A stretch of DNA of 64,000 nt from Glutinoglossum americanum (taxonomy: Eukaryota; Ascomycota; Geoglossomycetes; Geoglossales; Geoglossaceae), in assembly GCA_020080175.1 (NCBI GenBank), contig JAGHQL010000142.1, positions 1 through 64,000 on the forward strand, written 5' to 3'. The stretch's first letter is position 1; each line of letters begins with the position of its first letter. Both the position numbers and the translations under genes were made by a program. Shown piece by piece: positions 42,432 through 63,970 of the stretch. Below the pieces are notes generated by a model. The model saw only the letters and a program-made list of their open reading frames with translations, did not search any database and had not been told where the DNA came from.

Positions 42432-44998
42432 TCACCACGGTATGGCTGTGCCAAAGGTGAACGAAACTGGTGATCCTGTCATGTTCACCCAGATGGTCGT
42501 GGGGTCGTTGCCTAACTGTTCTGTCATGAACCCGTGTGTGTCAGTCACATTGGTACCCACAGTTATGGGAATCTGGGCACCGCATGTGTTGCCAGTCGTG
42601 GAAACCACAAGACCGGTGATTGTCTTCGCCGTGGTGTCGATTTGATATTGCACATTAGGCAAACAGCCATCACGTGCCATACGTTGCGCGAATGCGGCCG
42701 CAATCTGAGCGATCCATTAGTCAATCGGATTCTTTATCGAGCGAGGAGTAATGGAGATGCAAGGGGAAAACGAACATCGTCTTGCTTGAGGGACTTAATT
42801 GGCCACTTCACTAATCGTACCATCTCTTGCACAACTGTCTCAACCCACATCTGCAGCAGGGAATATTTGGCTGACACCCCGTTGATGGTCGTGTTTGGAA
42901 CATCCGTCTGCCGCATATTTGCTTGGTGGAACATGTACGGGTCTTGGAGGCACAATCGAAGGTATGGTTAGAATGTTTCTGCGTTCATTAAGGTAGAGTT
43001 TCAACAACCCAGGAAAGACTAACCGTGGTAAAGGTTAAATAAATTACGCGTGGTAGTCGCTTTCTCGAGCGTAAGGAGATCGTTGATAGTGCCTGATCCC
43101 GCAGCTGTGGCGATCCATTCTGCGACCGTGCATGCTGGCAAATCGCTATACAGCAAGACGGTGTTAATAAATTTAACTAGTTGGTTCTAAAACGGGCCGA
43201 TTGCGAAACGGGGGTGATATGGAAATGCAACGTACCAATTATAGTAGATGTTCGTCGGCCATCTTGGAGTGATTTGGGTTCCCGCGAATCCGTTGCCCTC
43301 GACCGTCGTGATGAGGGGCCAGTGGTCATTTTGCTGTCATACCAGTAGATACCACTTAGTTTGATGTGTTTGCGGTTATGCGAATGGATGCCTTGGCATA
43401 ATAAAGCATCGAAGAGTACAAGGCAAACAAACATACCTGGTTTCGCAGCAGAGGACGCGAGTTATCACCAATGACGTTGTGGATACCCCTGTCGCTCCAT
43501 GCCTGCAGGCAATCGCCATTATGCAGGCCCGTGATTGCTGGAGGGATGAGGCCCGCACCACTAAACCTTGTCGCCGATGAAAGGCCGACCTGTGCTAGCC
43601 ATGCCTGGTTGAATGCTATCTCCTTGAGGCAGTCGCTGTACGTCGCATTGTTAACTTCCAGATGAGTGAATGTGTGTGATACATGCGCGAAAGCGTTCCG
43701 ATTCGCGGCGGTGGCCCACCACCTCTCCAGCGGGTCCAAATTCACGCAGGCTGGGGCCCAGCCGTATGCCGTCGGAGTCGCAGGCCACACATCAGTTCCT
43801 GATCCTAGCGGTTTCTGGAACTCCAAGGGGGTGTCTATCTGCGCGCTGTACTCGATTGGGTCAGCGCACCTGTTGCGTGGATCACTTTCAGATGCCGCCT
43901 CGATGTTCCCATTCCCGTTGTGGCCGACTTCAATAAAGTAACTGCTTCCGGGATTCATCTTGGCGTTAAGGGTGGGCATCCAGTTCTTATGGGCTGTGAG
44001 GTCATTGGCGCGAATACGGAAGGTGGTGTTGGTGGGGCTATAGATGTCGGATTCTAAGAACATGTCGTCGACTGAGAGACACGTACAATATACGTCAGCA
44101 TGGCTGAAGCTAAGCAAGTAATACCAGGAAGCGAAAACCATACCTTGGGTGTTCAGATAGACCCTACGGTAACCCGTATACATGCCTCTCAGACCCCAAT
44201 GAACCCAAATGTGATTCAGGTATGTGCTCGTCTGACTCCACGTGGCGAAGCCGAGGAAGAACGCCATCTGCTGGTGTCCATCCTTGTTGCTGATGACACC
44301 AGCAACGGATGTCGCGGTGAAGGCCGAGTTTGGACTGAACTGGAGGAACTGCGTAGCGATGCTAGCATTTGTGATAGTAGCAGGATAGTGCCAGATGCCT
44401 TGAGTGCTCAAAGTTGCACCTCTGCATACCCATGTGTTTAGCGGATTGTCCTTCGATATCTAGAAAATTGCGCGGAGGCTAGATGAGGCTAGGCTTACAC
44501 TTTTAGACCTGCGGTCGTGAACCCAGTATCATCCGATACCGCAACCAACTGCTCCTCCGAAGCGCAGCATCCACCCAGTGCTGCTGCCCCAAAATCCGCC
44601 GTAGGAAACACATCCAACTGGACCATGCGCACCCCCCACGCTACCTGGTAAGCATAAAGGTCGCTCCACTGGCTAGCGTTCAATGCACTTAGCCAGCCGC
44701 TAGCACCGTAGTCATACGACACTTGTCCCAGGACGACAATAAGTCCAAAGTTACCCTGAGTGGTGGAGTTGAGGGCGGGGAGGGGGGCTCCAGCTTGGGG
44801 GACTGTCAAAACAGTGTAAGGGATCCCGTATCCGTTTAAAGTGATCGTCGCTATGCTGGCGGCGGGTGTGTCCCTGGCGATAACCAGGACAGTTGACAGG
44901 ACAGATTGGCAGTTCGTCAGAGTCGTGAAACATAGAACAAGAGTACATAATATCAAACTAAGCAGCGAGTTCGGTGGCCCCGGCTGCGATGTTGCCAT
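42432..44998 (-). CDS. agd3: Agd3-like galactosaminogalactan deacetylase (CE18), 690 aa
   Basis: Seven minus-strand exons: 44499-44998, 44144-44421, 43437-44071, 43236-43333, 43024-43145, 42776-42942 and 42432-42704. All junctions keep frame and give 691 codons. Key joins are AGLKV|GATLSTQGIWHYPA, VYLNTQ|VDDMFLESDIY, YYNC|DLPACTVAEW, NLYH|DPYMFHQANMR and KQDD|IAAAFAQRMARDGC. It begins with a signal peptide (LLSLILCTLVLCFTTLTNC). Catalytic landmarks of the family are the metal-binding Asp region VDDMFL and the histidine motif SHTFTHLEV; all are present. In Aspergillus fumigatus, Agd3 removes N-acetyl groups from GalNAc residues of secreted GAG, making it cationic and adhesive. The part before the deacetylase core likely corresponds to its carbohydrate-binding domain (CBM87). 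It is divergent from the sph3-like gene on the right. The gene looks intact. Confidence 0.9.
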
Positions 44999-45084
44999 GG
45001 CCGTTGCTTGCTTTCAAACTTGAGGATTAAAAGGCCAAGTCTGCCCAAATGAATTAACAAGGTAGGACAGTAAACGCAAGCACC

Positions 45085-45093
45085 GTATATAAC
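45085..45093 (-). promoter_or_regulatory. TATA-like element of the agd3-like gene
   Basis: Read on the minus strand it is gttatatac, about 90 bp upstream of the ATG. The sph3-like gene has a TATA-like box at the same distance. Confidence 0.45.
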
Positions 45094-45137
45094 GAGTGAA
45101 CGTGCAAGCAGTGTACTAACGAGTGTAACGTGCAAAC
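45091..45137. repeat. Direct repeat upstream of agd3
   Basis: Two copies of taacgagtg(t)aacgtgcaa, starting near 45091 and 45118, sit just upstream of the TATA-like element. They could be paired regulator-binding sites; this is an inference from position only. Confidence 0.5.
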
Positions 45138-46794
45138 GCACAAGTGATTAAAGAGTGACGAGAGAAACGACAAAGGATGAAAGTCTCTTGCTTCAAGTTG
45201 GAAGCTACTCTGGCCGGGAAACCGATCATATAAGAAGAAGCGATTGCCTCTTTCGGCCGAAGATCTCGGGGAAACAATTCCTGCTATTCGTGGCGGGCTC
45301 GCCGCGCTCAGCAGGCGCCCAGAGGACGCCCAAAGGAGAGCCCAAAGGAGAGCCCAGCGTCTCGAGCCTGCCACCAAGAAAAATGCACTATTGTACCTGC
45401 ACATACAGAGAGAGCATCGTCCGATGTTCATGCCGCGCACAGAAAGGGCACTTTCTGCCGAGCGGCAACGAAACTGAACCCCTGGCCCCTGCACCAACAT
45501 TGGAGAAGCAAATCTAGCTCGATCGCCTATAATAGACGTTTTTGGATGATGGGGTAGGTTTTTTCCCCGGAGCCAAGGGACGGGCTGTAACGATCGACGG
45601 CGAGCTCCGTATTTCTCCTTAGTGAAAGTCAATAAGGGAGATAGCCTTTGCCTTGGCGTCTCATTGAACTGACGTGGCGATTTTGCTACTTGGTGGCGCC
45701 GTCCCACGCGGGACCGATTCCAGTTACATATTAAAATTATCTGCCAATTCGACGCTTGGCGGAACGTCGCTGGTTTGAGGCGCCCTTCCCGTCCTGCGCC
45801 TCGCCTCCTGTCAAGGGCATCCTGACCGATCCGCTAGAATAGGTTTCGGGCATTGAAGCCGGTCCTAGCGCGAATCCACAAAGTAAGAGATTCACGCGAC
45901 AAACATTGTAAATTGGTGGCGCTTCTAGCGGCCGGTTGCACATCCGTCCTTGTGCGCGAGGAACATTCCTTCATTGATGCCGTGTATAGTCGGGCTCGAC
46001 GAGCGCATAACCGAGTATTACCTGCCGTTATGGCTTGCGATATCAACTGGTTCACATTGTCTGGCAGAACAGGGTGCAGTATGTGGGTTGGGATGCGATA
46101 AGTTTGAGAGGGTTCCCCAAACACCACCTCGGGATCGGACAACACCGAGAAAAATAATATCGAAAACAAGAGGGAGCAGGATCTTTTTATTGAGGAGAAT
46201 GAGCTTAGAAATGCAATATCTTCTCGGCGCATTTCTAATATCTAATAATACTCACCTCCTATCTCCTTTATAACCCGGACCAATTCTCAGTCTCTTAGCC
46301 GACGATATCCAACACAGGCTGCGATCTCGGTGAAGTATTGGCTTGGTGTCTCACCGAGGAGAACTTCGCACACGGCACGTAGCCTGCGTGTATGCCTTGA
46401 CGGGCGCACCTAATTTCAATCATACATATGGCTGGCATCAAAATATGGTCCGCATCGCCGACCTTGAATTGACTAACTTGTGACCGCAATTTCAAATCAC
46501 ACATGGTTACAGTGCACACTCAGCGGCCGGCCTTCGTTGATGTGTTGCTGTTAAACAGGTACTAGAAACTGTTGAATTTTTATGAAAAGTCTTGAACTAA
46601 TTCCCCCTCTACGCCCAATTGACGACCTACCCGATACAGAGGTTTGAATTTGTGGATACCCCGTGTAAGTGTGCCGGATGGCAAGATAGAAAAGACGACT
46701 TTTGGTCCGTAAAGTGTCCGCTGGGAATGTTGGCTCGCATTCTGTAGTTCCACCTTTGAACCCACATCACATGGTTAGGTGTGTGCGCCAGCCT

Positions 46795-46803
46795 ACATAT
46801 AAG
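46795..46803 (+). promoter_or_regulatory. TATA-like element of the first sph3-like gene
   Basis: acatataag about 90 bp upstream of the ATG at 46890, in the orientation of the gene. Confidence 0.5.
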
Positions 46804-46889
46804 TACCATCCATAGCCTGATGTTGCCAAGCCTTTCGCACCCCTTCCCTTGGATCGCGGAAACGATCGCTTCCTCCAACAACTCAAATA

Positions 46890-47979
46890 ATGGAGGCTAT
46901 CAAATCTGTACGGCATAGAACTAGAAGGTTCAAACTCTTTTCAATTGCCGCAGTTCTTGCCTTCACCATTCTCGCCGCCGCCATTCCACTGGCTGTTGTC
47001 TTTACCAAACGGAACCATCAGACAACTCCGAAACCAACCGTCCTTGTGCCATTATACGTTTACCCGGCCCCCGGCGCATGGGATCCATTACATCAGGTGT
47101 AAGACCCGTTCCCCACGAGAATTTCCTTCACTACGGATGAGCTCACTATCTCAGGGTCACCGCCAACCCCGGTTTGGGTTTTACCGTAGTACTAAATCCA
47201 GCTAATGGCCCGGGACCATCTCAATATCCGGGCAGCGATTACGCCGCGGAGGTCCAAAAGTTGAATGCACACTCGAATGTGCGTATGATGGGGTACGTCC
47301 CCACAGGTTACGCGACTAGAAATATCACATCTGTCCTCCTAGATGTGTCGACATATTCTGGCTGGGCTACGGATCCTACTACTACTGGTCTCGCCGTGCA
47401 CGGGATATTCTTCGATGAGACACCTAACCAGTATTCAACAGAGGCCGCTGAGTATTTGGAAACTATCAACCGAGCTGTCAAAAATTCATCGGGCCTGCTC
47501 TCAGACAGAATGGTGAGAGGACAGAACGCCATCGCCCGGATGACTTTCTGATTATCCCTGATGCACCTTCACTTTTCTTTCCTAATCGATCCTAGACGAG
47601 CGCGTTCTTCTTATCCGTTTTCTAACCTGCTGGCATCATTGCCTAGACAATTCACAACCCAGGTTCGATCCCAGACGCGCGCTTGGCCGACCCTGGTCCC
47701 GACGTGACTGTCGTGTTTGAGGAAACCTATCAGACATACCAACTGGCGCCGTCGTCCAAGACGCTCCAAGACAAATTGGCATCGCTTCCATATGGCCGAT
47801 CGCGGTACTGCTATCTGATGCACTCGGTACCTAAGAGTATGGGTGGAGCCGACCTGAGGCGACTGGTTGACGGATTGAGCAAATATGCAGGGTACCTGTT
47901 TCTCACAGATCTGAGCGATAATTACTATGCCAGCTTCGGGTCAAAGTGGTTAGATTTCATTGACGCCATGTTGGTATAG
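46890..47979 (+). CDS. sph3: Sph3-like GH135 glycoside hydrolase (spherulin-4 type), 299 aa
   Basis: Exons 46890-47098, 47155-47512 and 47647-47979 join to 300 codons including the stop. Intron 1 (56 bp, phase 2) gives PLHQV|VTANPGLGF and intron 2 (134 bp, phase 0) gives SDRM|TIHNPGSIPD. The N-terminus is a short basic tail (RHRTRRFK) plus one hydrophobic anchor (LFSIAAVLAFTILAAAIPLAVVF), so it is a type II membrane protein with the enzyme outside. The fold starts at VLVPLYVYPAPGAWDPL. Conserved acidic residues of the family are present in GIFFDETPN and VVFEETYQTY. In A. fumigatus, Sph3 cuts the N-acetylgalactosamine-rich parts of galactosaminogalactan and is needed for its production. It sits divergent to the deacetylase gene. 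Complete and apparently functional. Confidence 0.9.
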
Positions 47980-49426
47980 CGCTTTGGCAGTATCTGTGGA
48001 GATGGAGCGTCCGTTACATGTAAGGTAGAATGTAAGATACTACATAGCCACACGCTGAATGTTTCCAGCCGCGCCGCTACAAGATCCTACAAGTTTTTGT
48101 GCGCTTACTATTAACCACCCACAAAGCGGCAGCGCATCTATGGTCAGTACGTATTACCCATATACATACATCCCGTAGCTAGATTTACTCGAAAGATTCC
48201 CCACCTGAACCAGCACCGGAAAGACTTGGAGCTTGTTTTCTGGCTCGGTAGAGGCCGCTTTTAGTCGAAAAAAAATCCAAGCGAGCGGGATGTTCCTCAT
48301 GCAAATACGAGCCACGCTCAATGGGGTTGAACCGAGGCTCCAAGCTGATTTCCCGCAATAACGACTTTGTTGACCCCGAATCCGACTTCAGGTAGGTGGG
48401 CCGCAATTCCAAATTGTCCTGCCACCTAATTATCCAGTACTCCACATCAATGAGATCAATAGTCTAAAAATGTAATATCAATAAACAGAAAATGTCTCAC
48501 CTAGGGTATCGGTGTGCTCCGTTCATAGGGATTCGAGTCTTACCGCTAATCGGGGATGCTTAACCTGCCTCCTAGCAACGAACAAAGGGATTGATTAATT
48601 TTAAATACGGAGGTCGCCGTTAAAACCCTGGAACCCCTCAACTAGGCTTCACTTGGTCGTCAGGTCAATAAATTCTAGTTAGCGCTTTTGCGGCCTATGG
48701 CCTACGCAATATTCGTTCCCGCTTTCCGAATAAGTTTAATCTCCGGGATGCGTTAAGCTTGAGCTTATGTCTGCCTAAGGTCCTTCCAAGCTGCAGCCAT
48801 GGACCACTATACTTTGGCATTTCCGGGGGCTTTTAGGTGCATCATTTTTGGTTGTGATCTACCCGTTGGGAGCTTTAATTCCCCGTGGCGACTACCAAGG
48901 CCAGAGGAAATTGCCGGGTATACCGAATCTAGAATTCGATAGACCGTAAATGCCTAGCCGTACAAAGTAAATGTCGTGCATGCAAAGATGCTCTATCCTC
49001 CCGAGCGAGGTGTGCACGAGTAGTTTTCCATCTTTAGAAAAATTCAGTACAGGCTTTCTCGAGCCGTTCCAGATGGAGGGTTTTAAAATTTAAATTATAA
49101 ATACGATTAGATAGTTAAGGATGTTTGGTCAGCTAAGTAGTGTCCTCCCCCTTTGTTCAGTCTCTATATTTAGTGGAATGGTTGATTTGTAAATGAGGGG
49201 AAGAAAGGACAAGATGGTGATGATAAGACTAAAATGGTAGCCTTCAAAAGTGGATACCCGAACCTAAATGGTATGATTAAACAATAGGGTTATTTTAATG
49301 GGTGAACATGAACCTCCCGATTATGCGCTCAGTCCCGCGAAAATAAATGTTCCTTTAGAACTTCTAACTTCTGTACAATTTGTCATCAATTTTCCAGTCC
49401 CAAGACACCGAGGTACTCCCCACGAA
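47980..49426. other. Spacer between convergent cluster genes
   Basis: About 1.45 kb between the first sph3-like gene and the 3' end of the epimerase gene. Several AT-rich patches; no gene seen. It could once have held another gene, but nothing recognisable remains. Confidence 0.4.
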
Positions 49427-50755
49427 TCAGACACTAGGCTCGGCAACCAAACCGTTCACGACCAGGAAATTGCAGATGTCCTTTGAGCAAGTTTTCAACG
49501 GCCTTTCGATTGTCCAGGACAACTCCTCTTCTGCTCTTTGTGTCTTCGCCACGCAGGAGGATAAGTCCCCGGGTCTGCGGCCTATTGTCCGGTATGAGAT
49601 TTTTTTCCTTGATGCGCATTCCATTGCTTTGACGACGTCAAGGACAGAGTGGCCGTGCCCGCTCCCAAGATTGAAGGCCCGAAACGGCCCACGTATTCTC
49701 TCCTCCGCCGCTGCAACGAGAGCGGCAATATGGCCCCTCGCTAGGTCCGTAACGTGGATAAAATCCCGCACCGCAGTGCCGTCTTTGGTGTCGTAGTCCG
49801 CACCGTACACACTTAGGATGGGGAGGTCACCTGTGATGACACGAGCGACGGTAGGCATTAGATTGCTCGGGGTTCCGCGGGCTTTCTCGCCAAGCATGCC
49901 TGAAGAATCGCAGCCAATAGGATTAAAATACCTTAAGGCAATGACAGTCCAGGAGGGATCGGCTACACATAGGTCCGAGAGAATGGCCTCGCACATCCAC
50001 TTTGTGCGGCTGTAGGGGCTGGTGAGTCCTCTGCATCCGGACTGTGCGGTCTGTATTTCGCCGTCGTCGTCCGTGTAGACTTCGGGCTGGTGGACGCACA
50101 GCTCTTCGCGTAGAGGCGTCGAAGAGTTCGCGGCGGCGCCGTACACGGCCGCTGAGGAACTAAATACGAAAGACTTGATCCCATATTCACCCAAGATCGA
50201 GCAAAAGTCCACTAGACCGCCCACATTGTTGGCATAGTAATGTAGCGGCTGGTGGATGCTCTCCTCTACTGCCTTGGAGGCAGCAAAGTGTATGACACCA
50301 ATAATCTGTGACGTAGAGCTGCTCCCACACGAAGGTGATTTGGGCCGTAGGATGTAGGCATCAAGGATCGATTTCAAGGCGAAGCGATCTCGGTAATCAG
50401 CATTGTAGAATCTTAGCAATGGCATGCTCTTGCCGACCATCTCGTAGTACTTTGTCGCCAACACTTTGATGCGGTGAAAGACTATCGGGTAAGAGTTGCT
50501 GAGATTGTCGATAACAATGACATTGTATCCGCTCCTCAGCAACTCAAGGGTGGTGTGGGAACCGATATACCCCAGGCCACCGGTGACGAGGACGTAGCGG
50601 CTGTCGTCTTTGGGTAGAGCCTCAGAGAAATAATCGTAACCATCATCGAAGAGGGTAGAGAGCTCCGTGCCTGGTGTGCTCGGGGAGGGATAGGGAGAGT
50701 TAGAGCTAGAGAAGTCAAGGCTCCCGTCCTCCTCCATGTCGTACCTACAATCCAT
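49427..50755 (-). CDS. uge3: Uge3-like UDP-glucose/UDP-GlcNAc 4-epimerase, 442 aa
   Basis: An intronless frame. It is open up to 50965, but the first ATG is at 50755 (MDCRYDMEEDG), which I chose; the upstream part has no ATG. After an acidic serine-rich extension of about 50 residues comes the Rossmann motif VTGGLGYIGSHT, then FAASKAVEES, FSSSAAVYG, the catalytic Tyr/Lys pair in SPYSRTKWM, RYFNPIG, and VRDFIHVTDLARGH. These are the hallmarks of GalE-type short-chain epimerases. In A. fumigatus, Uge3 makes both UDP-galactose and UDP-GalNAc for galactosaminogalactan. The gene's place in the middle of the cluster supports that subtype over a housekeeping GalE. Cytosolic. It shares a short divergent promoter with the second sph3-like gene. 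Confidence 0.9.
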   Translation of the reverse strand: MDCRYDMEEDGSLDFSSSNSPYPSPSTPGTELSTLFDDGYDYFSEALPKDDSRYVLVTGGLGYIGSHTTLELLRSGYNVIVIDNLSNSYPIVFHRIKVLATKYYEMVGKSMPLLRFYNADYRDRFALKSILDAYILRPKSPSCGSSSTSQIIGVIHFAASKAVEESIHQPLHYYANNVGGLVDFCSILGEYGIKSFVFSSSAAVYGAAANSSTPLREELCVHQPEVYTDDDGEIQTAQSGCRGLTSPYSRTKWMCEAILSDLCVADPSWTVIALRYFNPIGCDSSGMLGEKARGTPSNLMPTVARVITGDLPILSVYGADYDTKDGTAVRDFIHVTDLARGHIAALVAAAEERIRGPFRAFNLGSGHGHSVLDVVKAMECASRKKISYRTIGRRPGDLSSCVAKTQRAEEELSWTIERPLKTCSKDICNFLVVNGLVAEPSV

Positions 50756-51174
50756 TCCAATTAAAGAGGGAGTTTGGTTGTAATGGATGTCGGCAAAACC
50801 GGGGGTCGGTAGTAGCACCAGTTTATATGATATTATGGGGACAGGGTAAGTTGACAGGAAGCCCCAAGGAGACGAGCCGGATGTGAATACCAGAGTATTG
50901 GTGGATTCGTGGAGGCTACGCTGGACGGTATATTCCCCGGTGTAGGTACATATATATATAACCACACGTGCCCTAATAACCGCTGGCTAAACATAACTGC
51001 TTGCCTCCCCGGTAGCATGAGCAAATACATCCGAGCGCCCACACACAATTTGTGAAGGCCGAGGAAAAAGATTCAGCGTCTTTCCAATTACCGCTGTACT
51101 CGCCTCCGTTACGCTTGCCATCACTATTTATCACTATTACGATAACTGTTGCACTTGCTAAACAAGGGAATAAA
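50756..51174. promoter_or_regulatory. Short divergent promoter of uge3 and second sph3 copy
   Basis: A (ta)n box, catatatatataacc, at 50949-50963 can act in both directions. It lies about 195 bp from the uge3 ATG and about 55-65 bp from the ATG at 51017, which probably was the original start of the second sph3 gene. Confidence 0.45.
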
Positions 51175-52160
51175 ATGGTCCCTAAATCAGCTGTCCTTAT
51201 TCCACTATACATCTACCCATCTCCTGGCGCCTGGGAACCACTGCATAAGGAGTAGGTCTTCCCCTTGCACCTCCCGTCTCTCAGCTATTTTGCTAAAGGA
51301 GAAAGGAAAACTGGGTGGCTTCGAATTTTTTTCTTATTTTCTCTTCTTTAACATAGCTGACCGATCGGTGAAGGATCACTACCCACCCTAGCCTGGACTT
51401 CACCATAGTGCTGAATCCACACAACGGGCCAGGATCCTCTGGACTTCCAGACGCTAACTACGCTTTCGAGATCTCTAGGCTGAACGCTTATGCTAACGTG
51501 CGCACGGTTGGCTATGTTCATATTGGCTACGGCAAGAGAGACGCTTCGGAGGTTCGCCGGGACGTGGCGACATATGCTGGGTGGTCAATGAACGTCGACA
51601 TGCAGGGAGTTGCCGTTCACGGAATCTTCCTCGACGAGACGCCGAACCGGTATTCGGCCAAGACCGCCGAGTATTTGGATGCCGTCCGCCAAGAGGTTAA
51701 AAATTCATCGGGCATTCTGGGAGATAGGATGGTGAGCCACCGTTGTATATTCGGAAGCACAACTTTAACGGGCGGTTGTCACCTTCCTTCCCAAAACGAA
51801 AGAAGAGTTGGTTTCTTTTCGTTTTTGCTTTGTCTGACTTCTGGGTAGGTAATCTATAATCCTGGTTCCATCCCCGACACGCGTTTCGCCAATCTGGGTC
51901 CCGACCTGACAGCTGTGTTCGAGGAAACCTACCAAACCTACCGGTCCAAGGCACTCCAGGACAGACTGTCGTCGGTACCATATGCACGGTCCAGATGTTG
52001 CTACATTGTACACTCTGTACCGTCTAATGAGGTGAGGCAATTAGTCACCCAACTGCGCCATCGTGCGGGGTACCTCTTTCTCACCGGCCTGAGCGAGAAC
52101 TACTACGCCAGTTTCGGGCCGACGTGGTCCGATTTTGTCGCTGCGATGAGCACGGAATAG
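51175..52160 (+). CDS. Second Sph3-like GH135 hydrolase; anchor exon frame-broken
   Basis: A paralogue of the gene at 46890 with the same intron positions and phases. Segments are up to 51251, 51374-51731 and 51849-52160. Joins are PLHKE|ITTHPSLDF (phase 2) and GDRM|VIYNPGSIPD (phase 0). The catalytic parts are whole: GIFLDETPN and AVFEETYQTY. The beginning is not. An ATG at 51017 (MSKYIRAP) and a hydrophobic anchor (VFPITAVLASVTLAITI) are still visible, but in two frames different from that of the enzyme. As it stands, translation could start at 51175 (MVPKSAVLIPLYIYP), giving a 248-residue enzyme without membrane anchor or signal. It is either a recent pseudogene, a sequencing problem in the first exon, or a soluble variant. 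From the start used here, the exon lengths sum to a whole frame. Confidence 0.75.
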
Positions 52161-52764
52161 ATGGAGGCCTCTATTTTCCTCTCCTTTCTCATGTAGCGGG
52201 TTCCGAATGCACCAGCCGAAAATCTTGTGTTAGGTTGCGTGATGGAGGGATGGATGTGGTGCGGGCGGTGCATAGGGAGAGTCACGGGGCACGGGTGGCC
52301 GATGCAAAGCGTGTGTGTGGTTCTTAATAGCAGCGATTGCGCCAAGGGAAGAGGGTTCGCCAAGCCAGTGTCTTGCAGTCGCAGGAAAATTCGAAATACA
52401 AAGGTTCTGATCCAATGATTTGACAAGCGTGAAGCCACAAGGTAAATCCCTTGTGTGGGGGAAAGCATCGCAATTTAGCGGCGGCTTAAGGTTCAGAGCC
52501 GGGCCGTGTGGAGTGACATCGCCAAGGAGATTTTAAAGCGCCAGTTTCAACGTTCCACTCGGCGCATCTAGAGCAGCGATTGTCTCACTTCCCCTCTACT
52601 CCGCAGACGACAGCATATGGTGGAAATATCTTTTTTTTTCGAATTTGCACCGGCGAAATTAACAAAAGAAACAAAGTACGAAAACAAACATGAAATTATT
52701 AGGTAACATCAGAGAAGAGCCGTCTAAGGTGGCGTGCGGTGGCGTCAATGTTGAGCCACTCCAA
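52161..52764. other. Spacer between convergent cluster genes
   Basis: 600 bp holding the 3' ends of the second sph3-like gene and the ega3-like gene; no gene recognised. Confidence 0.4.
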
Positions 52765-53841
52765 CTACGCGGGACAAGTCCTGTACCAATCATCCAGCAC
52801 GAGAGCTTTCATCAGCGTCGAGAAATCCACTGTATTAGCTGCGCCGCAAATGGAGTTTGCCGTCGCCAAGTCAATGTCTGGCGCCGAATCCGGATACTCA
52901 ATATGGAATACTGGCTTGTTGGCGTCGACAAATGGCCTGTACAGGTCGCACTCATCGTATTGGACGCACTGCTCATTGACCTCCCATTCTAGCAGGTCGA
53001 CCACGCGAGGGACAATGGCGCCGGCGTTCTTGAGCCCAATGGAGAGGCTGCGATTGTGCGCGTGGTTTGCAAGGAAGGTCAGATAATTGACTGCGTCGTC
53101 CTGGTTTAGGCTGAAGCCCGTGTCGTTGTCGTAGCCATCGACGTTGTCGGGGTCCACGCCGTCACAGCCCTTGTGCGCAGCCAGGTCCAGCCGTTCAACC
53201 ATAATGCGCCGCACATTCGCGGAATTGGTGTCTAGCCACCGCTCGTTGTTCCATCCTTCAACGACATTCCTATAGTCGCTGCGGGAGAAGTCTGTGGAAT
53301 CCGGGCGGAAGCTCTCATATGTGCCCGCTGAGAAGTAGCAGATGACCTTGCGGTTTTTGCCATGGAGATCAGAAATCGTAGAGGCATTGTTGGTGAAGAG
53401 GTCGATATCGTAGACTTGGACGTCTGGGGTTGTGTCGTTAAGGGGGTGTAGCAGCACGATTTGCCATGTGGTGCCTCTCTCAGGCTTCCAGATGCTCGTG
53501 TTTTTGCCAGGGCCTTCCCAGCCGCTGGAGATACCGGTGTCATTTGATGAGGAAAACCCGCTATGGTCACGTCTTCCAACAGTGAGACCCACGCCTAAAC
53601 CCACCGCTATGCCAACGAGGACAACGGTAACCGCCACGCAAACGATTTTCTGTGTTACCGACCACCGGCGCCACCAGGACATACCAATATTAGCCCTCCC
53701 GTATCCTTGTTTGTTGTATTCTTTCATCGGCGATCCACGGGGGTTGGGTATCTCGGGGAAGGAAGGCGTTAGCGAAGATAGAATCGATTTTGGCATGGGG
53801 AGATTGTGATTGCTTGGTTGTGCAGAGGAAGGGGTGGCCAT
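52765..53841 (-). CDS. ega3: Ega3-like GH114 endo-alpha-1,4-galactosaminidase, 358 aa
   Basis: An intronless frame. It is open to 53919, but the first in-frame ATG is at 53841 (MATPSSAQPS). The layout is a cytosolic proline/serine-rich tail, then one hydrophobic anchor near residues 65-88 (IVCVAVTVVLVGIAVGLGVG), then a linker and the GH114 domain, so it is type II membrane-bound. Family motifs are TWQIVLLHPL, VQVYDIDLF, KVICYFSAGTYE, WLDTNSANVRRIMVERLDLA, GCDGVDPDNVDGY, GLKNAGAIV and WEVNEQCVQYDEC. They include the Asp of GVDPDN and the Glu of the VNEQC region, expected to be catalytic. In A. fumigatus, Ega3 cuts galactosamine stretches of deacetylated GAG. The gene is divergent to the giant glycosyltransferase gene. 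Looks intact. Confidence 0.88.
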   Translation of the reverse strand: MATPSSAQPSNHNLPMPKSILSSLTPSFPEIPNPRGSPMKEYNKQGYGRANIGMSWWRRWSVTQKIVCVAVTVVLVGIAVGLGVGLTVGRRDHSGFSSSNDTGISSGWEGPGKNTSIWKPERGTTWQIVLLHPLNDTTPDVQVYDIDLFTNNASTISDLHGKNRKVICYFSAGTYESFRPDSTDFSRSDYRNVVEGWNNERWLDTNSANVRRIMVERLDLAAHKGCDGVDPDNVDGYDNDTGFSLNQDDAVNYLTFLANHAHNRSLSIGLKNAGAIVPRVVDLLEWEVNEQCVQYDECDLYRPFVDANKPVFHIEYPDSAPDIDLATANSICGAANTVDFSTLMKALVLDDWYRTCPA

Positions 53842-54740
53842 GCGAAGAACGACTGGAGGGCGCTCGACAATAGATTTATTCGGGGGCCTTTTGTTGACGA
53901 CAGCCGGTCCCTCATTCACTCGCTTCGGTGGCGCGGAGTTCGGAAATTTATGTGTACTAGCGTAAAAGCGTTGTTAGATTGGAATAGCGTATTCGCTGGT
54001 TTAGGATGTCCTTGGCAGGTCTTTGGATGCATGATGTATGCAAATTCAAGGCGGGAAAGCTGCCAAGGATATCTTAAACCAGAGAACACGCTACATCAAG
54101 CAAACACTATTTTCAACGCTGATGTAGTAGCAGTTCCGCGGAGCAGTTCCGCCGAGGCACGGAAAAGGAATACTGTATTGTGGCGCCCTTGGGCCAACTC
54201 CTGGGCGAGAATATCGCTCATAGTGTCTTAGATATTGACTAAATATTACTCACTACTACGGGCATGCCTAGGAAAGCGGGAAAGAATAAGGAGAAGTCTG
54301 ACAAAATCAGGAATGATTGGCTGAATCCTCTTGGATTCAGTGCCATGAGAATGTGGGAAATTTTGTGCAGGCTGGTGGCTATTGTGAACAGGAATTTCCG
54401 GGCACCGTGATTTCCAGCCAACAAATTTATGCCTGATGTAATGAATGCTGGAGAGCTTGCACTCTCATCCATCTTGTTTTCAAAGAAACAGGAGCATGCG
54501 AGGTCGTCGTCTGGCTTGCCTTGTTCGCCCCGTCCGCTCGTTTTCCCCTACTCTCTTAACCCGTTGGTGGGATTTTGGAGAGCCGGCCAAAAGGCCAATT
54601 AATAGACCAACTAGTTAGTTGGTTGCAAGTCCACTCGTTTTTGGACTAGTAGCTGGTCAACCTCGGTCGGCGATCCCTCGTTTTTGCTTCGAGCTCTATG
54701 CAATTTAGTCACTCTTTTGTCATAATTCCCTTGAGAAATA
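53842..54740. promoter_or_regulatory. Divergent intergenic region (ega3 and giant glycosyltransferase)
   Basis: 900 bp between two genes reading outward. Short frames here lack motifs. A short paired repeat around a gap (aaaaggccaattaatagaccaactagttagttgg, about 54588-54622) includes a small palindrome, ccaactagttagttgg. Confidence 0.4.
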
Positions 54741-57700
54741 ATGGCAGAGTATATAGGTTTGAAGGCGGTGGGGTTGCATGGGATGGTGAAGCATTGGTGG
54801 CAATGGGTACGTTTGCTCAGCTATGAACCGTCTGCAGAATAGAAGCCAAGCTGACTCTCGACGGTAAGGTACTTGCGGGCTTGCTGCTGGCCTCCGCCGC
54901 CTTGGGTTTGACATTCCTGTTGTATGTGTTGTATAGGGAAGCTAAGAAGCGTTGGGATGTATGTCTATATGCCTGTAGGCCGGGTGACTCTGGGAAACAC
55001 GCAAAGCTAACGGTGGGATTGATTCATCGCTGTAGGGGAGAGGACAAGCTTTAGTAGTGTCCGCTGCCGTCGCACGTTACTTCCATAGTCTCGAGAGCAC
55101 GGCCATACGGTTTATTCCCCAAAAATGCGACGCAAAAAAGCCCAAGTCATTCGGTGTATTCCTCGGCGAGTTCGCTAACCCACCGACAACACACCAGATA
55201 TGTCTTTTATCGCAGTGGGACGTCGTCGTTCTAGATCCTCTCCAAGTAGGAGTACTCGATGCCATTTCTTCCCCTCAATGTACCTCCGCATATATCCTAG
55301 GCCGACTCGACGTAGAGGCAGTCGTGCAGCCTGACCACCACTCTGGCGACGCTGCGATTATACGATCCCTAGGTGTTGTTGCCCATATTCTCATGACGTC
55401 TTTCAAGCGCCCACAGGATGAGCAGTCCCGTTTCACCGGCGTGCTTCTCGCGGGCTGGCAGACCCACTTCCCACCAGTAGTCTGTGGCGAACTTGTCAAA
55501 TCCATGAGCAGCCTCGGCCTCGACGTCTATCTCGAGATCTCTCCGCCCACCTTTCTCACGGGTAGCTACTACCGCGGCATTAACATGGACCACCTCAGAG
55601 GAATGGTCTGTCGTAATGGCACCATCCTGCCCGGCGGCGAGAAGCGCGACTTCTTCCAGATGGCGGATATGCAGACTGCTATGAGGGCCGCAGTGGCACA
55701 GTCTTGTCTAAGGAGCTTTGTGGTCATGATGTGGGAGACGGTTGACGATGATGTGGAGCTGTCGCATGCAGTGGCTAAGCGGAGTTTTGCGTGGTGCCAT
55801 TTCTATAGCGCGATTAGTTGGATTGGGTCGAGGGCGGCGCTGACTGATGCGAAGGTTGCAACAACGGAGATTATGGCGGAGGAACCCTTGGGAGCGTTTG
55901 CTTGGTTGAAGAACGATGAGGTTATGAAGGCGCATGAGATATGGCGGTCGAACGAAAAGGTAAGCGAGGCCGACAGCTAAAGTCTTGAACTACCCGCTAA
56001 ACTAATAACCACGATAGATTTGCCAAGGGCCATGTGGCGACCGCTCAATATTCGATTCTCTGGAGTTATTCATACCAAATCTGACATCCAAGTTGTCTGT
56101 GGTGCCGCTCAGTAATGAAGAGAGGACCGAGAGCCCGGTCGCGAGGTTCGAAGACTTTGACTGGACGTCGCTAGTCCCCCACGTGAACACGAATCCACTC
56201 TCATTTTCTCGCCGCGGCGCCGACTACACCGGACTCGGATGCTTCCCATTAGGCTTCGATTGTTCGCCGAACGACTTTACCGACCTGGTTCAATCTCAGC
56301 GCCGTCTCAGGGAACTCGGTCTGCTGGACCCTGTCGCACCGGATGAGCTTCGTCGGATCGGCGAGCAACTGCATGCCCTGCACAACAATACTCGCAGCTC
56401 TTTGGCGGATTCCCCAGACGACCTCCAGGTCATCGAAGAGTTAGCAGAATTGCTTTGTCAGGTCACCGGCAACGACGAAGACAACAACCGCCTAAGAGTT
56501 TATGTGGGATTAGACTCAGGATTTCGCAATGCTTCTGACGTCCAATTCTGGGGTCTTTACGACTTCGACAGTCAACTGGGCACTGTGGATATATACATTT
56601 CAAAAAAGGTGCGAGACCTTCCTGGCACAATCCTACACTCTTTCATGTCAAGCAGGAACTGTACTCGGTCCCAATGCTTTATGGCTGAGATTGCTCTGGC
56701 CAAGCAGACGGGATGTTTGACAGAGACATTCGAGTTGGCTCCGCGGCTCCTGCAGGATATCGAGATGCTGTCTCCAGAAGAGATTCTTGTGTTTCTACAG
56801 CACCTGTCGCTCTCGAAATGCGAGGAGAGCTCTAATATTCTCGCTATGCTGCGATCCTGCTGCGAGTACCAGCTCATGGAGGTTCCATCACTCGCACAGC
56901 TCAAGGCCTTGAGCACGACTGCGTACATCCGGGGTGAGATTTCGGCAGAAGATCTGGTGGCATCTCGCCTTGAATGGTATCGTGAGCGAGGTTGCCAGCA
57001 TCCTGACCCTGATGCTGCCATCTCGCTCTTCCTGGAAATAGAAGTTAGCATCATGGACGCTCTCAAACGTCGGCAAAGCCAGCAGCTTGAACAGCTTACA
57101 ACTGTTCTCCGGAGCGTTCTGAGGAAAAACAAGATTGACTCTAGTTTGGACCTCTTTGCCTTGTCGGTATTCTGTGCCATCCGCAAACTAGCATTCGAAG
57201 AAGTCTACATGGAAGTAACGGACCGCAACCCTCTTTTCGGCGATCAATGTGACCAGGCAGCCGCATTTGCAGAATTGTTTGCCCTGGGCTCACGCTGCGA
57301 GTCATATTTTGGCGTAACTCCCAGCGTGTTTGGGAAGATGCTCTCTGACAAATATCGTTTGTATTATAATGCGCATCAACCTCCGCCGTCGGCCGATGAT
57401 TCCACCGTGCTTGCTACAGCCTATGCAGCCGCTCAGATCGACGTAGATCCGGATGCTGATCCAGCAGAGTTACCATGGTACTCTCGGTTCACTTTCCTGA
57501 GCGTCTTTGCTATCCCGGCGCTTGTCGATATCCTGCTGCTTACGACTACTGGACGAGGTCTCTACCTGAGTGCTTATATGAGCCAGATTGAGCAACAAAT
57601 GGCTACACTTGCCCTAATGATATCCTTGATTCTATCCGGCGCCATTGGCTCATGGATAAGCTATGGAGGCAGCTACTACCTTGTCTCCATGGCATTTTCT

Positions 57701-60700
57701 GCGATGAATATGTTTGCTCTTACTCGTTTTATTGCCGGAATGGCGTTCTGTCTTGCAAGTGGCCTACTGGCTTTCGTGCTCATTGGGATTACCAAGGGAT
57801 TTCTTGCTGGCCTTATATTCTTCCTCTATCTCCTTGGTCTTACATCGTACCTTTCTGTGCTGGTGGTCCTCGCCACTTACCAATTCCCAGGATTCTCGTT
57901 TCAATCGGTAAGCACGATCTTCCAGTTTCCCAACTTAAAAGGAGCCCTGATATCCAATAAAGAGATCCGGTCGCTGACAAAGTACCTTTACAGGGGAGAA
58001 CAGTTATCGTAGTTTGCATACCGGTTCTTTTTGTCTCGCCCATTGTCACGCTGTGGATTCGCCACGACGTTGCAGTCTACCTCAGCGTACTGTACGGTTT
58101 TGTGACTTCGCTCCTCCTTGGCTCTAGAAGGATCATCTCTCAATGGAGTACCTGGCATCTCAAGGTACCTACTGTCACGGATAATGACATCCTCAATTGG
58201 TACATTACGACAAAAGCATCGGGTGACTCTGGTGCCTTGGCTGGCATGACGGATCCCGCGGCAATGCGGCTAGCACAGAAGACTCTCTTAGCCGACGTCC
58301 TCAAGGAGCGAAGCCGTCTACCCTGGACTAAATCTATGGCTGACGGACTTGTTTTGCAGCTGGCAAAGGGATACACAGCCACGATGTTTCTGTTTGATTG
58401 GTACTGCAAATATTCTAACACTAAAATGCCGTTGCCATATAGCTCGACATGGAATATCCAGTCTAGAGTGGCTCTTGATACCCTAAGACGTGCGCAAAAG
58501 GGTATTAAGCTCCATAACGGGTTTGTCCACTGGCGTCGCGCTAGCGGTGAGGTAGGCTGTGGTGTCCTCTACTTTGTCGTTGCTCTTCTTGATAAGTGGG
58601 TCGAACTGATCTCTGGCGGTAAACTTGTCGGTCTCTCAGCCGCGACGAATGAGACATTCCGTATGGCGGTGGGTTTTGGATTGGCCTATTATCTCGTTGG
58701 TGCAGTCATTCTTGATGTTAGAGCGCAAACCCTACATGAGCAGGCAAATCAGATCACACACCAGCCTATTACTTCTGTGAAATTTCTTCAGCAGGCTGCC
58801 ATCAACGATGCCAGGGCGAAACGGAAGCTCTATTGGAGCTGTCTAATTAAATTCTTTTTTATACATGTATGGGGCCTTTCGGTGACGGCGGCATTTATCT
58901 GGTCATTTGACAGCTCCAGAGATGCCATGGTAATGTTCCTTTCCTACGTCGGCGCTTACACTGGTCTTCTCTGGTATCAGTACAGCAGGATATTTACCGG
59001 GCCGCGTGCATTGAAAGATCTCGTCATAGCCGTGATCATTGGATTGCCAGTGGGCCTTGTCATGCATCATTTTCAACCGCTATCTGCGTTCAATAGCGTT
59101 ATTGCCCTGGCAATTGCGACATGGACGGCCGCCATACTCTCACTATGGACTGCTGACATCGGGATACCGAGGTTCAGTGACGATGCTAACGCTAAAACAC
59201 CACCGGTATTCCACTCCAATGGCGCTCTTGGACTTTATCCCGAGTTGTCGCAGAGGGCTCTGTCGGAACTTTTCGGTGCTTTCTACGCTCTCCCCGCTGA
59301 GTTACGCTATAGGCTTGACCCCCGGAAATACCCAGGCGTCGAGGTAATGACAATCTTAATGTGTCAAAGTAATGCATGTTACTCTGGGTTGGTGCTAGAT
59401 GCTTTTCCAGAGGCCGAGCAGTTGGTGGATAGAACAGCTGAGCTCTGGAAAAATGGCAAGATTGTAATCGACCTTGTACCCGCGCGACATCCCAGCCAGC
59501 CTGAACAGGCTATCAGAGCCGTCAGCCGGACTATGGATGATCAACTGCATGTCCTCGTTGGGGTCGACCTGGATTTTGTTGGGGGCCGATGGGCCATCGA
59601 TATTCATCGGAACTGCAAAGTGTGAGCAACTTATTTTCTAAACCTGGAAATCTCCAATGCTGTTCGACTGCTAAACATGCCTCTTCAGTATCGCAGAAGC
59701 TCTTATCTATGCCGCTGCTGAGTCCAAGCTTGGTCTCTCGCGTAGCCATTCCATACTGGCAGAGTTACTAGTCACGAGCTACGATAATGAGGAGGAACTC
59801 TCTATCCCGGATGGTATCAAGCGTCAGCTCGAACGTTCCTCGTTCGAACGTACGACAGCTATCAAATGCCACGACAAGGAACTGCTTCGGCATCTCTGCT
59901 TCGGCAGAGAGTGTGACAGAGATTGGGATAATCTCCCTAGGACCGTTAGGTCCCTTCTCCTCAAGCGTTGTTACGGAGAGCCCTGTTACATCTCTGACAG
60001 CCAGTTACGCTGTATTAGCTCAACTTTCTGCAGGGGCAAATCCCTTGACCTTGAGACATATGTGGCGCGTTGCAATCTGAGCGCAGTCCTGACCATTCTC
60101 GTGGGTTCTTTTGCTACGGCGCTGGACACAGACCGCCCTCGCCGAGGCCACCAACCACAGCCTCCCGACTCAAGCTACCAAAAATGCATGAGCATTTCTG
60201 GTGCAGCTGGTATTCGAAAAAATCAGCTCATTGATTACGTCAAGCTCCCAATCCATTGGGTTTACCATGTACTCGGAACTTGCATAAAGTTTTTCGCCAT
60301 CTCCCTCATCGCCGACCCGGAATTCCAAAGGGAATTGGATCACGTTATGTCGGGGAAAATTTCGATAATCCGCTGGCCAGCGACTCTATTTCTTAACGCA
60401 GTTTGGATATACTGCAGCACACTGCAGCGCATCATGCTCCCCTTCTTTTTGGTACATCTTGCCATTCATACAGTTTACCCCATAGCGAATAGACGCTAAC
60501 TCGTTCTGCTTACAGTTTCACGGGCGTGAGAGTGTCTCGAGACTTTTTAGTGATATGAAAGGCGTGAAGACGGTCATAGGGAAGCATAAGGTTGTGGTTG
60601 AGAGCCTTGACGGGCCTTCCACCGCCTTTGTTAGAACCCAGTCTGATGGTGGCTCCAAACTTTATCAATACTCCGGACGACACGATCGAGAACCCGAAGG

Positions 60701-63700
60701 ACACCAAAATCTCGTGGCCATCAACACCTACACGGACAAGCTAGTCCTCTGTAGAAGGGAGGAGTATGCCTACCAGTCACTAGTCAATGAATTTTCATAT
60801 GAGTACCACAGCGGGAGCTCGGCTCGCGATAGTCGTATATTAAAGACCTCAAATCCAAAATTGGCAATAGGACGTCGGTGTGTTCAGGGAAAGCTCGAAG
60901 GGCAACTCGTCCAATATGACAATAGGGGTTTCATTACTTCCGGATCGGCTATCAAAGATGGCAATCTTCTCCACTTCAAATTCTGGTACCGGAAAAATGC
61001 AAGATTCGATGACGAACTCCTCAGGGCTGAGTATGTATTCCCGCACATCAGCGTGAAAGTGTCGTGGTGCGCTCCTCCTCCACGCCATCCTGAGAAATCG
61101 GATAGATGGATACCACACTCCAAGGTCATGGAGGCTACATTCATACAAGGTGCAGATAAGTACGAGAGCAAATGGGAGTATGACCACAAATTCCACCCCG
61201 CTATTTTGACGACGCTTAATGGCCGGAAGGTGGCAACACCTCCAATGATACAATTCGACTGGCTCGATGTTTTGAAGAAGCCGAAAAATTGTAGCTTTGT
61301 GGATGATAACCCGCTGTTCTCGTTCAGCTCAGTGAATATGAGCTTTATATCCCGCCTGCTTGGCTTCAACACTCACCGTTTTCGGATATCAACATCGCGT
61401 GCCAGATCTCACCTCTGGAAATCGTGGAGGGACGGGATTGAATTTGACGGCGTTATTGTCCGGTGGCTGGACGAAACTGCTTTGAGGTCGGATCGGGTTT
61501 TGAAAAAGTACTGGAGTGCCCGGGATATGGGTCGCCTTCAGGCCGGAGAAGATTATCTCAACTCACACGCTGACACTATCATGGCAAGTGTCGATATTGA
61601 CCGCGAGATTAGTTCGTGGACACCGCTAGCGTTCAAGATGAGCGACTTCTACAGTTTCGGACAGGGCGGCGATGCTGTGATTAACACGAGAACGCGGTCT
61701 AGCCAACTGCGCGATAGCGACAATGAGCTCCATGTTCTCGCGACGGATACAGGGACCTGGCCCAATGAAGGGGGAGGTGTTTCTGCCTGCCGCCGCGACA
61801 TGATTGATAGCCTTCAAACCATCAAGTGGCACATGGTTGTGGAAGCGGCAAACGACTTTGGATTACCCAAGTATCAGATTGAGCAGAATATACAATCGCT
61901 AAAAGTGGTACCCCTATGGGGCCTGGACTTCCTCACGCCCACCCATGGGATTTTCCAAAATTGCCTTGACTCGATGGTTCAAGAAAAGTCTCAGAATACA
62001 AGAGACGCGGACATCGCAAATGAATTTATACCTATCCTTACCTCGTTGGTCCGAGGCGCACGAGCGGTTGATCTTGATCGCTCAAGAGTGGAAGAAGTTA
62101 CCAAGACCCTTGTGGATATGAATACTTATTTTGAATCATCCCGGCATTGGAGTGCCGTATGGGATAGCGACATTGTCAAGGATGCATGGCGAGAACTTTG
62201 GCTGACCGAAGACATGTCTAATGTGAAGCCCTTGTCGGAGTGGTTCGATGCGGAGCGCCCGACACTATCACATCTTGACCAAGCATTGGAGCTGTGGTAT
62301 CGCTGTAAGTACAAGTATAATTCTTCAATGCCAAACTGGTGGTGTGCGGGTGAGCTGACAGCGCATCCGATTCCTTTAGATTTATTCATCTTTTCCATTC
62401 CCGTTCCGGAGGAGATACCAGATGTCTTCCAGGCGTCTCATCATTCTGTCAGCGCCTCATATGGCATTGTCTGCAAAGTCAAGCGTCAATGCACTCTCCA
62501 GATCTGGGATCACGCAATCAGCTGGAGAGAAACGAATTTATACTTGTCTTCCGCCCTGTGTTTCCTACCGCCGTTCGTCCGCAACTCGCTTCTCGGGCTT
62601 ATGCGTCTGACCTCCGTCCTCGTCTTGAATCATGCGGACATTGTCCTCCCATGCGCGGACTTCTTTAATCCGGGGTGGGAAACAGAGATAGGGACGTGTC
62701 AAGGCACTCTACAGCACCGGCGTGTCTTCCATCGGAAGATTGACCCGGTTGTCAACGGAATCTGTGACATGGAGAGGTTCAAACCCATTGAGGAAGTTAA
62801 AACAAAGGTGCCTACTGTGACGATGCTTTCTCATGTATGGTACGTGTGTTCGAGCAACCCCCTTTCTGTTACCGCATAACGAAACCGCATCGAAACTAGT
62901 AAAACCAGTTAACTAACTACTTGGTAGGTATGCGAAAGATATTAAGACCGCTATTTTGGCCGCGGATATTATCGTGAACGAGTGGGGATTCAACGACTAC
63001 CATCTTGATATATACGGTGACTTAGAAAGAGCTCCTACTTACTCAACCGAGTGTCAAGAGATCATAGCTTCGAAATCACTTCGGGGAAATGTGGCTCTTA
63101 AGGGTACTGCGAACCCGGTCACAGTTCTTGAAGATACTGTAGGTCTCCCATTGCCATATTATTGTCGTGCAAGATGTTAATTGTTCTTTCTAGTGGCTTT
63201 TCATGAACTCTTCAGTATCTGAGGGTCTCCCGTTAGCCATCGGAGAAGCCGCCCTGACAGGGGTGCCAGTGATTTGTACAGATGTTGGAGCATCGCTCCG
63301 TGTTTTAACCGACCCCGAAAATTCCAAATGCTTCAGCGCCATCGTCGCCCCCAACGATGTCCGCTCCCTTGCTAGATCACAGGTCAATCTCCTTGCTTTG
63401 CTCGACGAATGGAGCGAGTTTGCCGGAGATGGGGAACCATGCCCGAAGCTGTCATCCCGCCCAACGAGAGAAGAGGTAGACCGGATTACGAAGAGAATGT
63501 ACGAGAAGAGTGAACAACGCCGCCGCCTCGGGATGATGTCCCGTTCGATCGTACAAAAGAGCTTCGCCGGTGATCGGTATCTCCGAGAACATGAACAAAT
63601 GCTCTGGATCGGCAAATACCGAAGTGAGAGATACCGCAATGAACGCGACTGTGCCGAAACCGGTACACCGACGTCGAATGATTCCCCCTATTCCACAGAG

Positions 63701-63970
63701 GCCGAAAAGGAAGCCAAGAAGGTTCCACATCAGGCTATTCGCACCAAGTTCATGCACCAGAGGAAGTCAGAGGGAGTGGATAGCCGCATGGGCACACACT
63801 TACTCACGGCAGATGGGTTCGGATATTCGAGGACGAGTGTACTAGGAATGGGGGCATCGCCTTATTCATCCCGAACGCTGACAGTGGCGACCGGCTCGCT
63901 GACGGACATTGAACTTGGACTAGAATCTGCCTTGGATGCCCAATTCCGGTCCGCTGCTTACAGTCCTTAG
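54741..63970 (+). CDS. gtb3: Giant GAG synthase: multi-pass membrane protein with GT4 glycosyltransferase domain (about 2896 aa)
   Basis: Nine exons: 54741-54806, 54851-54958, 55036-55959, 56018-57907, 57994-59621, 59689-60451, 60516-62839, 62928-63138 and 63194-63970. All are in phase and total 8691 nt. Exon 2 gives an N-terminal anchor (LAGLLLASAALGLTFLLYVLY). Residues about 59-366 look like a soluble alpha/beta domain (GLDVYLEISPPTFL, VVMMWETVDDD). About a dozen hydrophobic segments follow in residues 850-1440. The C-terminus is a GT4 domain of PelF type: IWDHAISWRETNLYLS near 2457, VVNGICDMERFKP, and the E-x7-E motif SEGLPLAIGEAALTGVPV at about 2648-2656. The cluster glycosyltransferase of A. 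fumigatus (Gtb3/Gt4c) is the expected orthologue, joining UDP-galactose and UDP-GalNAc at the membrane. The first intron (44 bp) is the least certain. The gene ends 30 bp before the window edge. Confidence 0.88.

Follow-up and report, generated by a model that had tools for sequence, protein, structure and literature searches.

The window analysed here (bases 1–64,000 of a 72.7-kb contig, from an assembly of 25.8 Mb in 317 contigs) raised the question of whether its right-hand part encodes a complete pathway for galactosaminogalactan (GAG) and, if so, what its large synthase and its second GH135 gene reveal about the history of the pathway.

Gene content of the cluster

Manually built gene models, guided by homology and by intron signals, placed all five GAG genes and a second GH135 gene contiguously at 42,432–63,970 (Table 1), and the ends originally predicted for the cluster were equal to the outermost ends of the spliced models. 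From left to right the order was agd3 (-), sph3a (+), uge3 (-), sph3b (+), ega3 (-) and gtb3 (+). None of the models contained an internal stop. The four spliced models had 18 introns between them, all of the GT..AG type and 55–134 bases long, and uge3 and ega3 were intronless. The five genes besides sph3b together span 15,293 bases, with clean frames throughout. When the whole 25.8-Mb genome was searched in six frames, all matches to Agd3, GH135 and GH114 fell within this cluster.

Table 1. Positions of the cluster genes and of two features within them (window coordinates).
Feature	Position	Strand	Description
agd3	42432..44998	-	secreted GAG deacetylase, 690 aa, 7 exons; hydrophobic N-terminus, CBM87, CE18, C-terminal domain
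sph3a	46890..47979	+	membrane-anchored GH135 endo-alpha-1,4-N-acetylgalactosaminidase, 299 aa, 3 exons
uge3	49427..50755	-	UDP-sugar 4-epimerase (GalE family), 442 aa, single exon
anchor-like stretch upstream of sph3b	51060..51128	+	resembles the Sph3a membrane anchor; other reading frame than the catalytic domain
sph3b core	51175..52160	+	second GH135 gene; catalytic domain 248 aa, 3 exons; Spherulin4 3.9e-84
ega3	52765..53841	-	membrane-anchored GH114 endo-alpha-1,4-galactosaminidase, 358 aa, single exon
gtb3	54741..63970	+	predicted membrane GAG synthase, 2,890 aa, 9 exons
PelF-type GT4 domain of gtb3	61749..63586	+	~aa 2199-2763, across the last three exons; coordinates from the exon table

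The matches of the cluster products to Pfam, NCBIfam and PDB were far above chance level. Agd3 matched the Pfam families Agd3_CE (2e-179), CBM87 (9.7e-89) and Agd3_C (7e-25), and its residues 32–688 aligned to the solved enzyme PDB 6nwz (E = 6.5e-266) with 394 of 655 aligned residues identical. All seven residues reported by Bamford 2020 as needed for the activity of Agd3 (D377, D378, H510, H514, R613, M666 and H668) were the same in this protein at a single fixed numbering offset; it therefore has CE18 and CBM87 domains with intact catalytic motifs. Uge3 matched TIGR01179 galE above its cut-off (4.3e-94), Pfam Epimerase (1.8e-35) and PDB GalE structures (to 2e-80). It is by this generic GalE match that it was recognised as a UDP-glucose 4-epimerase, putatively of the Uge3 type, and its use of both UDP-Glc and UDP-GlcNAc is predicted.

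The two hydrolases expected at the membrane were both identified in anchored form. Ega3 matched Pfam GH114 (5.2e-87) and PDB 6ojb (9.8e-88; 134 identical residues over query residues 109–356), had a hydrophobic anchor at residues 66–84, and conserved both the nucleophile D189 and the acid/base E247 named by Roth 2025. Sph3a had a hydrophobic anchor at residues 19–37, as judged by hydropathy, and matched Spherulin4 (6.1e-82) and the A. clavatus Sph3 structure 5d6t (4.3e-76). The anchors on Sph3a and Ega3 and the hydrophobic N-terminus on Agd3 are as in the known GAG system. Together, the domain-family and PDB matches bore out the original prediction of a full five-function set, and none of the family searches that had been suggested for the six products refuted it. 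We conclude, with a probability of about 0.93, that the locus is a gene cluster for GAG biosynthesis in a filamentous fungus.

Three other open frames in the window were also noted. One on the minus strand (12486–14720) is long and has a heterokaryon incompatibility (HET) domain (E = 2.1e-31), one on the plus strand (16172–20791) has 1,540 residues, a DUF3684 match (4.8e-294) and a sacsin domain at its start, and one close to the left end of the window (43–930, plus strand) encodes tandem tetratricopeptide repeats. Intron-bearing genes and a gene with a HET domain are in keeping with a filamentous ascomycete.

The second GH135 gene

One gene of the cluster had been predicted to be duplicated, and there are indeed two GH135 genes, with sph3b located between uge3 and ega3. 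Its GH135 catalytic domain was complete, and both copies kept a DE pair and a later glutamate, as seen in their alignments with A. clavatus Sph3. Sph3b and Sph3a were identical at 147 of 243 residues (60.5%), more than either copy shared with A. clavatus Sph3 (120/244 and 115/244 residues identical). In addition, two intron positions were identical in sph3b and sph3a. These shared positions and the mutual closeness of the copies make it probable that the gene was duplicated within this lineage and at the DNA level. The dN/dS ratio between the copies was 0.26/1.81 = 0.145 by NG86 and 0.27/1.53, or approximately 0.18, by YN00, with dS near saturation. Values of about 0.15–0.18 indicated constraint on the catalytic part of sph3b during most of its history.

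The original account of a second sph3 copy needs a correction, as only the catalytic domain of this copy is complete. The anchor-like stretch upstream of sph3b aligned to the Sph3a N-terminus with a score of 50 (maximum 41 and mean 25.6 in 300 shuffles), and its peak hydropathy was 2.07, compared with 2.66 for the Sph3a anchor. It lies in another frame than the catalytic domain, and a search upstream found no in-frame N-terminal membrane anchor for sph3b. From these sequence features we read sph3b as a gene that lost its anchored form; the disruption of its frame may stem from an assembly error.

It is possible, if somewhat doubtful, that sph3b instead still functions and encodes a GH135 protein lacking an anchor, which would start at an internal ATG, a non-AUG codon or an unrecognised upstream exon and provide a second site of polymer cutting. 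The constrained catalytic domain, the shared intron places and the DE and E motifs in the alignment are all consistent with such a gene, but the 53 open residues that precede the internal ATG in frame contain no Met and, with a peak hydropathy of 1.43, are too weakly hydrophobic for an anchor. These residues are also unlike the Sph3a N-terminus (score 23, against the shuffle average of 25.6), and the homologous anchor is in the other frame.

GAG formation in A. fumigatus depends on Sph3, for reasons that the available literature leaves unclear, so an anchored and unanchored Sph3 pair could be a natural test case. A narrow literature search for paralogues of spherulin connected with GAG returned no duplicated sph3, from which we claim no absence; the Monilinia GH135 literature, in its available parts, concerns species differences in GH135 content.

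Gtb3 and its bacterial relatives

The gene model, hydropathy and family matches, for this single fungal Gtb3 sequence, described a large membrane GT4 synthase. The protein comprises an N-terminal hydrophobic segment, a domain at residues 53–360, a further region, a membrane region at approximately residues 851–1377 and the C-terminal GT4 domain. The last of these matched Pfam Glyco_trans_1_4 (6.3e-14) and, as the best of 16 NCBIfam families listed, PelF (NF038011; 5e-23, 81.9 bits; next family 38.7 bits). The curated cut-off of NF038011, 100 bits, was not reached, and we therefore call the domain PelF-type and do not file it as PelF. An HMM built from 87 bacterial stretches, which came from 86 loci, matched the Gtb3 GT4 domain at 2.2e-40, and hhalign of the bacterial PelF profile gave a probability of 99.5% over 444 columns. 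When the GT4 part was compared with bacterial plasmid sequences by tblastn, 37 records matched at E up to 0.01. Among the 25 matches listed, 19 were annotated as PelF and six carried other names or none, the other names including DUF3492 protein and group 1 glycosyltransferase. Judged by these similarities, the GT4 domain of Gtb3 is related to PelF of the bacterial Pel polysaccharide, and its nearest relatives among the plasmid sequences compared are PelF proteins.

The available text of the 2020 review calls Gtb3 uncharacterised, and the relationship to PelF provides a concrete model for it. We did not find this kinship stated in the available parts of PMC9030451, PMC10485009, PMC13254593, PMC9135694 or PMC12345266, the first of which does compare the synthesis of GAG with that of Pel; it may stand elsewhere, e.g., in Sheppard and Howell 2016.

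The remainder of Gtb3 was less informative. Residues 53–850 and the membrane region had nothing significant in Pfam, NCBIfam, PDB or the profile comparisons, and Pfam and NCBIfam matches were absent from the pieces scanned ahead of the GT4 part. AlphaFold2 modelling of the single exon coding for residues 53–360 gave a mean pLDDT of 31.9, too low for a fold search. A PDB sequence search with the same exon gave weak matches, the best of which (a viral capsid protein, E = 0.064) was taken as chance. To the eye the domain resembles a barrel hydrolase, an impression that nothing confirmed and on which we base no claim. The membrane region was compared in two passes, the first with untrimmed alignments lacking PelG and the second with cleaned alignments and two PelG proteins. 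Neither PelG nor the membrane partner of the actinobacterial loci gave a significant match (best probability 1.5%), in a comparison that used a single fungal sequence and hence had low power.

The bacterial relatives of the GT4 domain lie among genes that resemble the fungal set. Genome loci were the best 80 of at least 579 that were confirmed by the similarity of their PelF to a Kocuria-led alignment, and were mostly Actinomycetota by title. Partner families were assigned with phmmer (threshold 1e-5), the queries being the proteins of the window and those of Kocuria, Streptomyces and Deinococcus. Among these best 80 of at least 579 loci, an Agd3-related protein was present in 75, GH135 in 64, GH114 in 50 and a membrane partner in 74; all four occurred somewhere in the locus in 45, and in 36 of the 49 that had full flanks. 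The six plasmid loci contained the same partners in 3, 2, 3 and 3 cases, respectively, with all four in two. Fungal proteins used as single queries at 1e-3 against the 86 loci (best 80 genome and six plasmid) identified Agd3 in 6, Sph3a in 65, Ega3 in 53, Uge3 in 18 and Gtb3 in 86. The Streptomyces-type deacetylase matched fungal Agd3 at 1.3e-21 by hmmsearch and with 99.1% probability over 547 columns by hhalign. By Pfam, the Streptomyces deacetylase had no match, that of Kocuria fell below the cut-offs and that of Deinococcus was above them. Bacterial exopolysaccharide operons containing Agd3 were described by Bamford 2020 and, in the parts of that paper available to us, taken as support for transfer from bacteria, so our tally is a confirmation with more loci.

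Two features of the bacterial operons were observed in passing. On a mobilizable plasmid of Kocuria rosea (locus L013, 4989–14057), genes for PelF, an Agd3-related protein, GH135 and GH114 lie between two transposase genes with one protein accession and opposite strands, and the whole looks like a composite mobile unit that carries a GAG-like operon. The protein adjacent to PelF in the GAG-type operons (L013–L015, L103 and L104) is annotated only as hypothetical, and none of the three scanned had a Pfam match. Its family has a median of 8 hydrophobic segments and no detectable similarity to the two PelG proteins; it may be an unrecognised exporter family.

Trees were calculated from hand-chosen rows. 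In the tree of 26 PelF/GT4 rows the fungal row was between groups on a very long branch (6.48). One split, supported at 100/99, had the 18 GAG-type rows and the fungal row on one side and, on the other, the six Pel-type rows together with a row from Paenarthrobacter. Support was only 56/85 for the branch that isolated the 18 GAG-type rows from everything else. The 100/99 split disfavoured nesting of the fungal GT4 domain inside the Pel-type group, and the branch lengths were too great to name a source. In the tree of 20 GH114 rows, for which 11 of 13 requested genome loci were matched (L047 and L055 gave none) and a second, cut GH114 gene of L014 was excluded, fungal Ega3 joined a Pseudoalteromonas protein (100/99) and not the actinobacterial ones. 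We speculate, as a rather unlikely reading, that Gtb3 is a single-chain version of the bacterial Pel/GAG synthase, in which a PelF-type polymerase was fused to its own exporter and an N-terminal domain, that it descends, together with its partner genes, from an operon of bacteria, and that the second GH135 here left the membrane to work elsewhere.

Predicted pathway and comparison with known systems

Published work on Aspergillus, Metarhizium and Neurospora is the basis from which we infer, by analogy, how the steps follow one another and that the product is adhesive. Uge3 would supply UDP-galactose and UDP-GalNAc in the cytosol, and the PelF-type GT4 domain of Gtb3 would polymerise them. The alpha-1,4-linked chain would then pass through Gtb3's own membrane region, whose role in export is predicted. 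Outside, membrane-anchored Sph3 would trim the acetylated chain, secreted Agd3 would remove part of the acetyl groups, rendering the polymer cationic and sticky, and Ega3 would cut the deacetylated stretches. The second sph3 copy would enter this scheme as a duplicate with a constrained catalytic domain and no in-frame membrane anchor.

A Pel-like homopolymer of GalNAc/GalN, in place of a galactose-containing GAG, is an improbable product of the cluster. The GT4 domain is PelF-type and Pel is an alpha-1,4 GalN/GalNAc polymer, but homology to PelF speaks to the polymerase family and not to donor choice, and other fungi with the same gene set make GAG, according to the literature in its available parts. 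It is very improbable that the GAG cluster is inactive or decaying in a fungus that lost its use of GAG, with the disturbed sph3b, its anchor-like stretch out of frame with the catalytic domain, as an early sign, since the other five genes have clean frames, the active-site residues of Agd3 and Ega3 are conserved and the dN/dS of sph3b is low.

A working GAG cluster would have several counterparts, and three papers, as far as their available text goes, contradict the original view that few descriptions of the pathway exist beyond Aspergillus. Lee 2016 (PMC4817252) reported the GAG cluster in 28 species, all but one Pezizomycotina; Mei 2021 (PMC8224951) deleted the cluster in Metarhizium and noted changes in gene order and orientation; and Chatrath 2024 (PMC11356417) characterised and genetically tested that of Neurospora. 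We therefore reject novelty outside Aspergillus.

The A. fumigatus cluster shares all five enzyme families and the anchors on Sph3 and Ega3, but lacks the order and orientation seen here (agd3-sph3a-uge3-sph3b-ega3-gtb3, - + - + - +) and the second GH135. The predicted difference in order is borne out by the locus numbers that PMC4817252 gives for four of these genes and by the order gtb3, agd3, ega3, sph3, uge3 listed in the 2020 review, each in its available part. Change of gene order between genera is already known and is not new. The clusters of Metarhizium robertsii and Neurospora crassa share the five-function set in Pezizomycotina, with a changed order in Metarhizium, and the available parts of Mei 2021 and Chatrath 2024 do not mention a second GH135 gene. 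These sources do describe an extra small gene in N. crassa (PMC11356417) and a second Agd3-like gene, 64% identical, in Metarhizium (PMC8224951), so a duplicated GAG gene has precedent.

The bacterial Agd3-containing operons of Kocuria, Streptomyces and Deinococcus share a PelF-type GT, an Agd3-related protein, GH114 and a membrane protein with the fungal cluster, and many of them GH135, but their GT and membrane protein are separate genes, whereas fungal Gtb3 is one chain whose membrane region matched neither their membrane protein nor the two PelG proteins. The Pel operon (PelDEFG) of Proteobacteria shares a PelF-related GT4 and a partly deacetylated alpha-1,4 GalNAc product (PMC9135694, in its available part), that of the fungal cluster being predicted. 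It may differ in PelG, two examples of which gave no significant match to Gtb3, and differs in its deacetylase, which is CE21 in P. aeruginosa PelA, according to the available text of PMC13254593, versus CE18 here. To these systems the present cluster contributes one more fungal example of the complete GAG gene set, and one with a duplicated Sph3.
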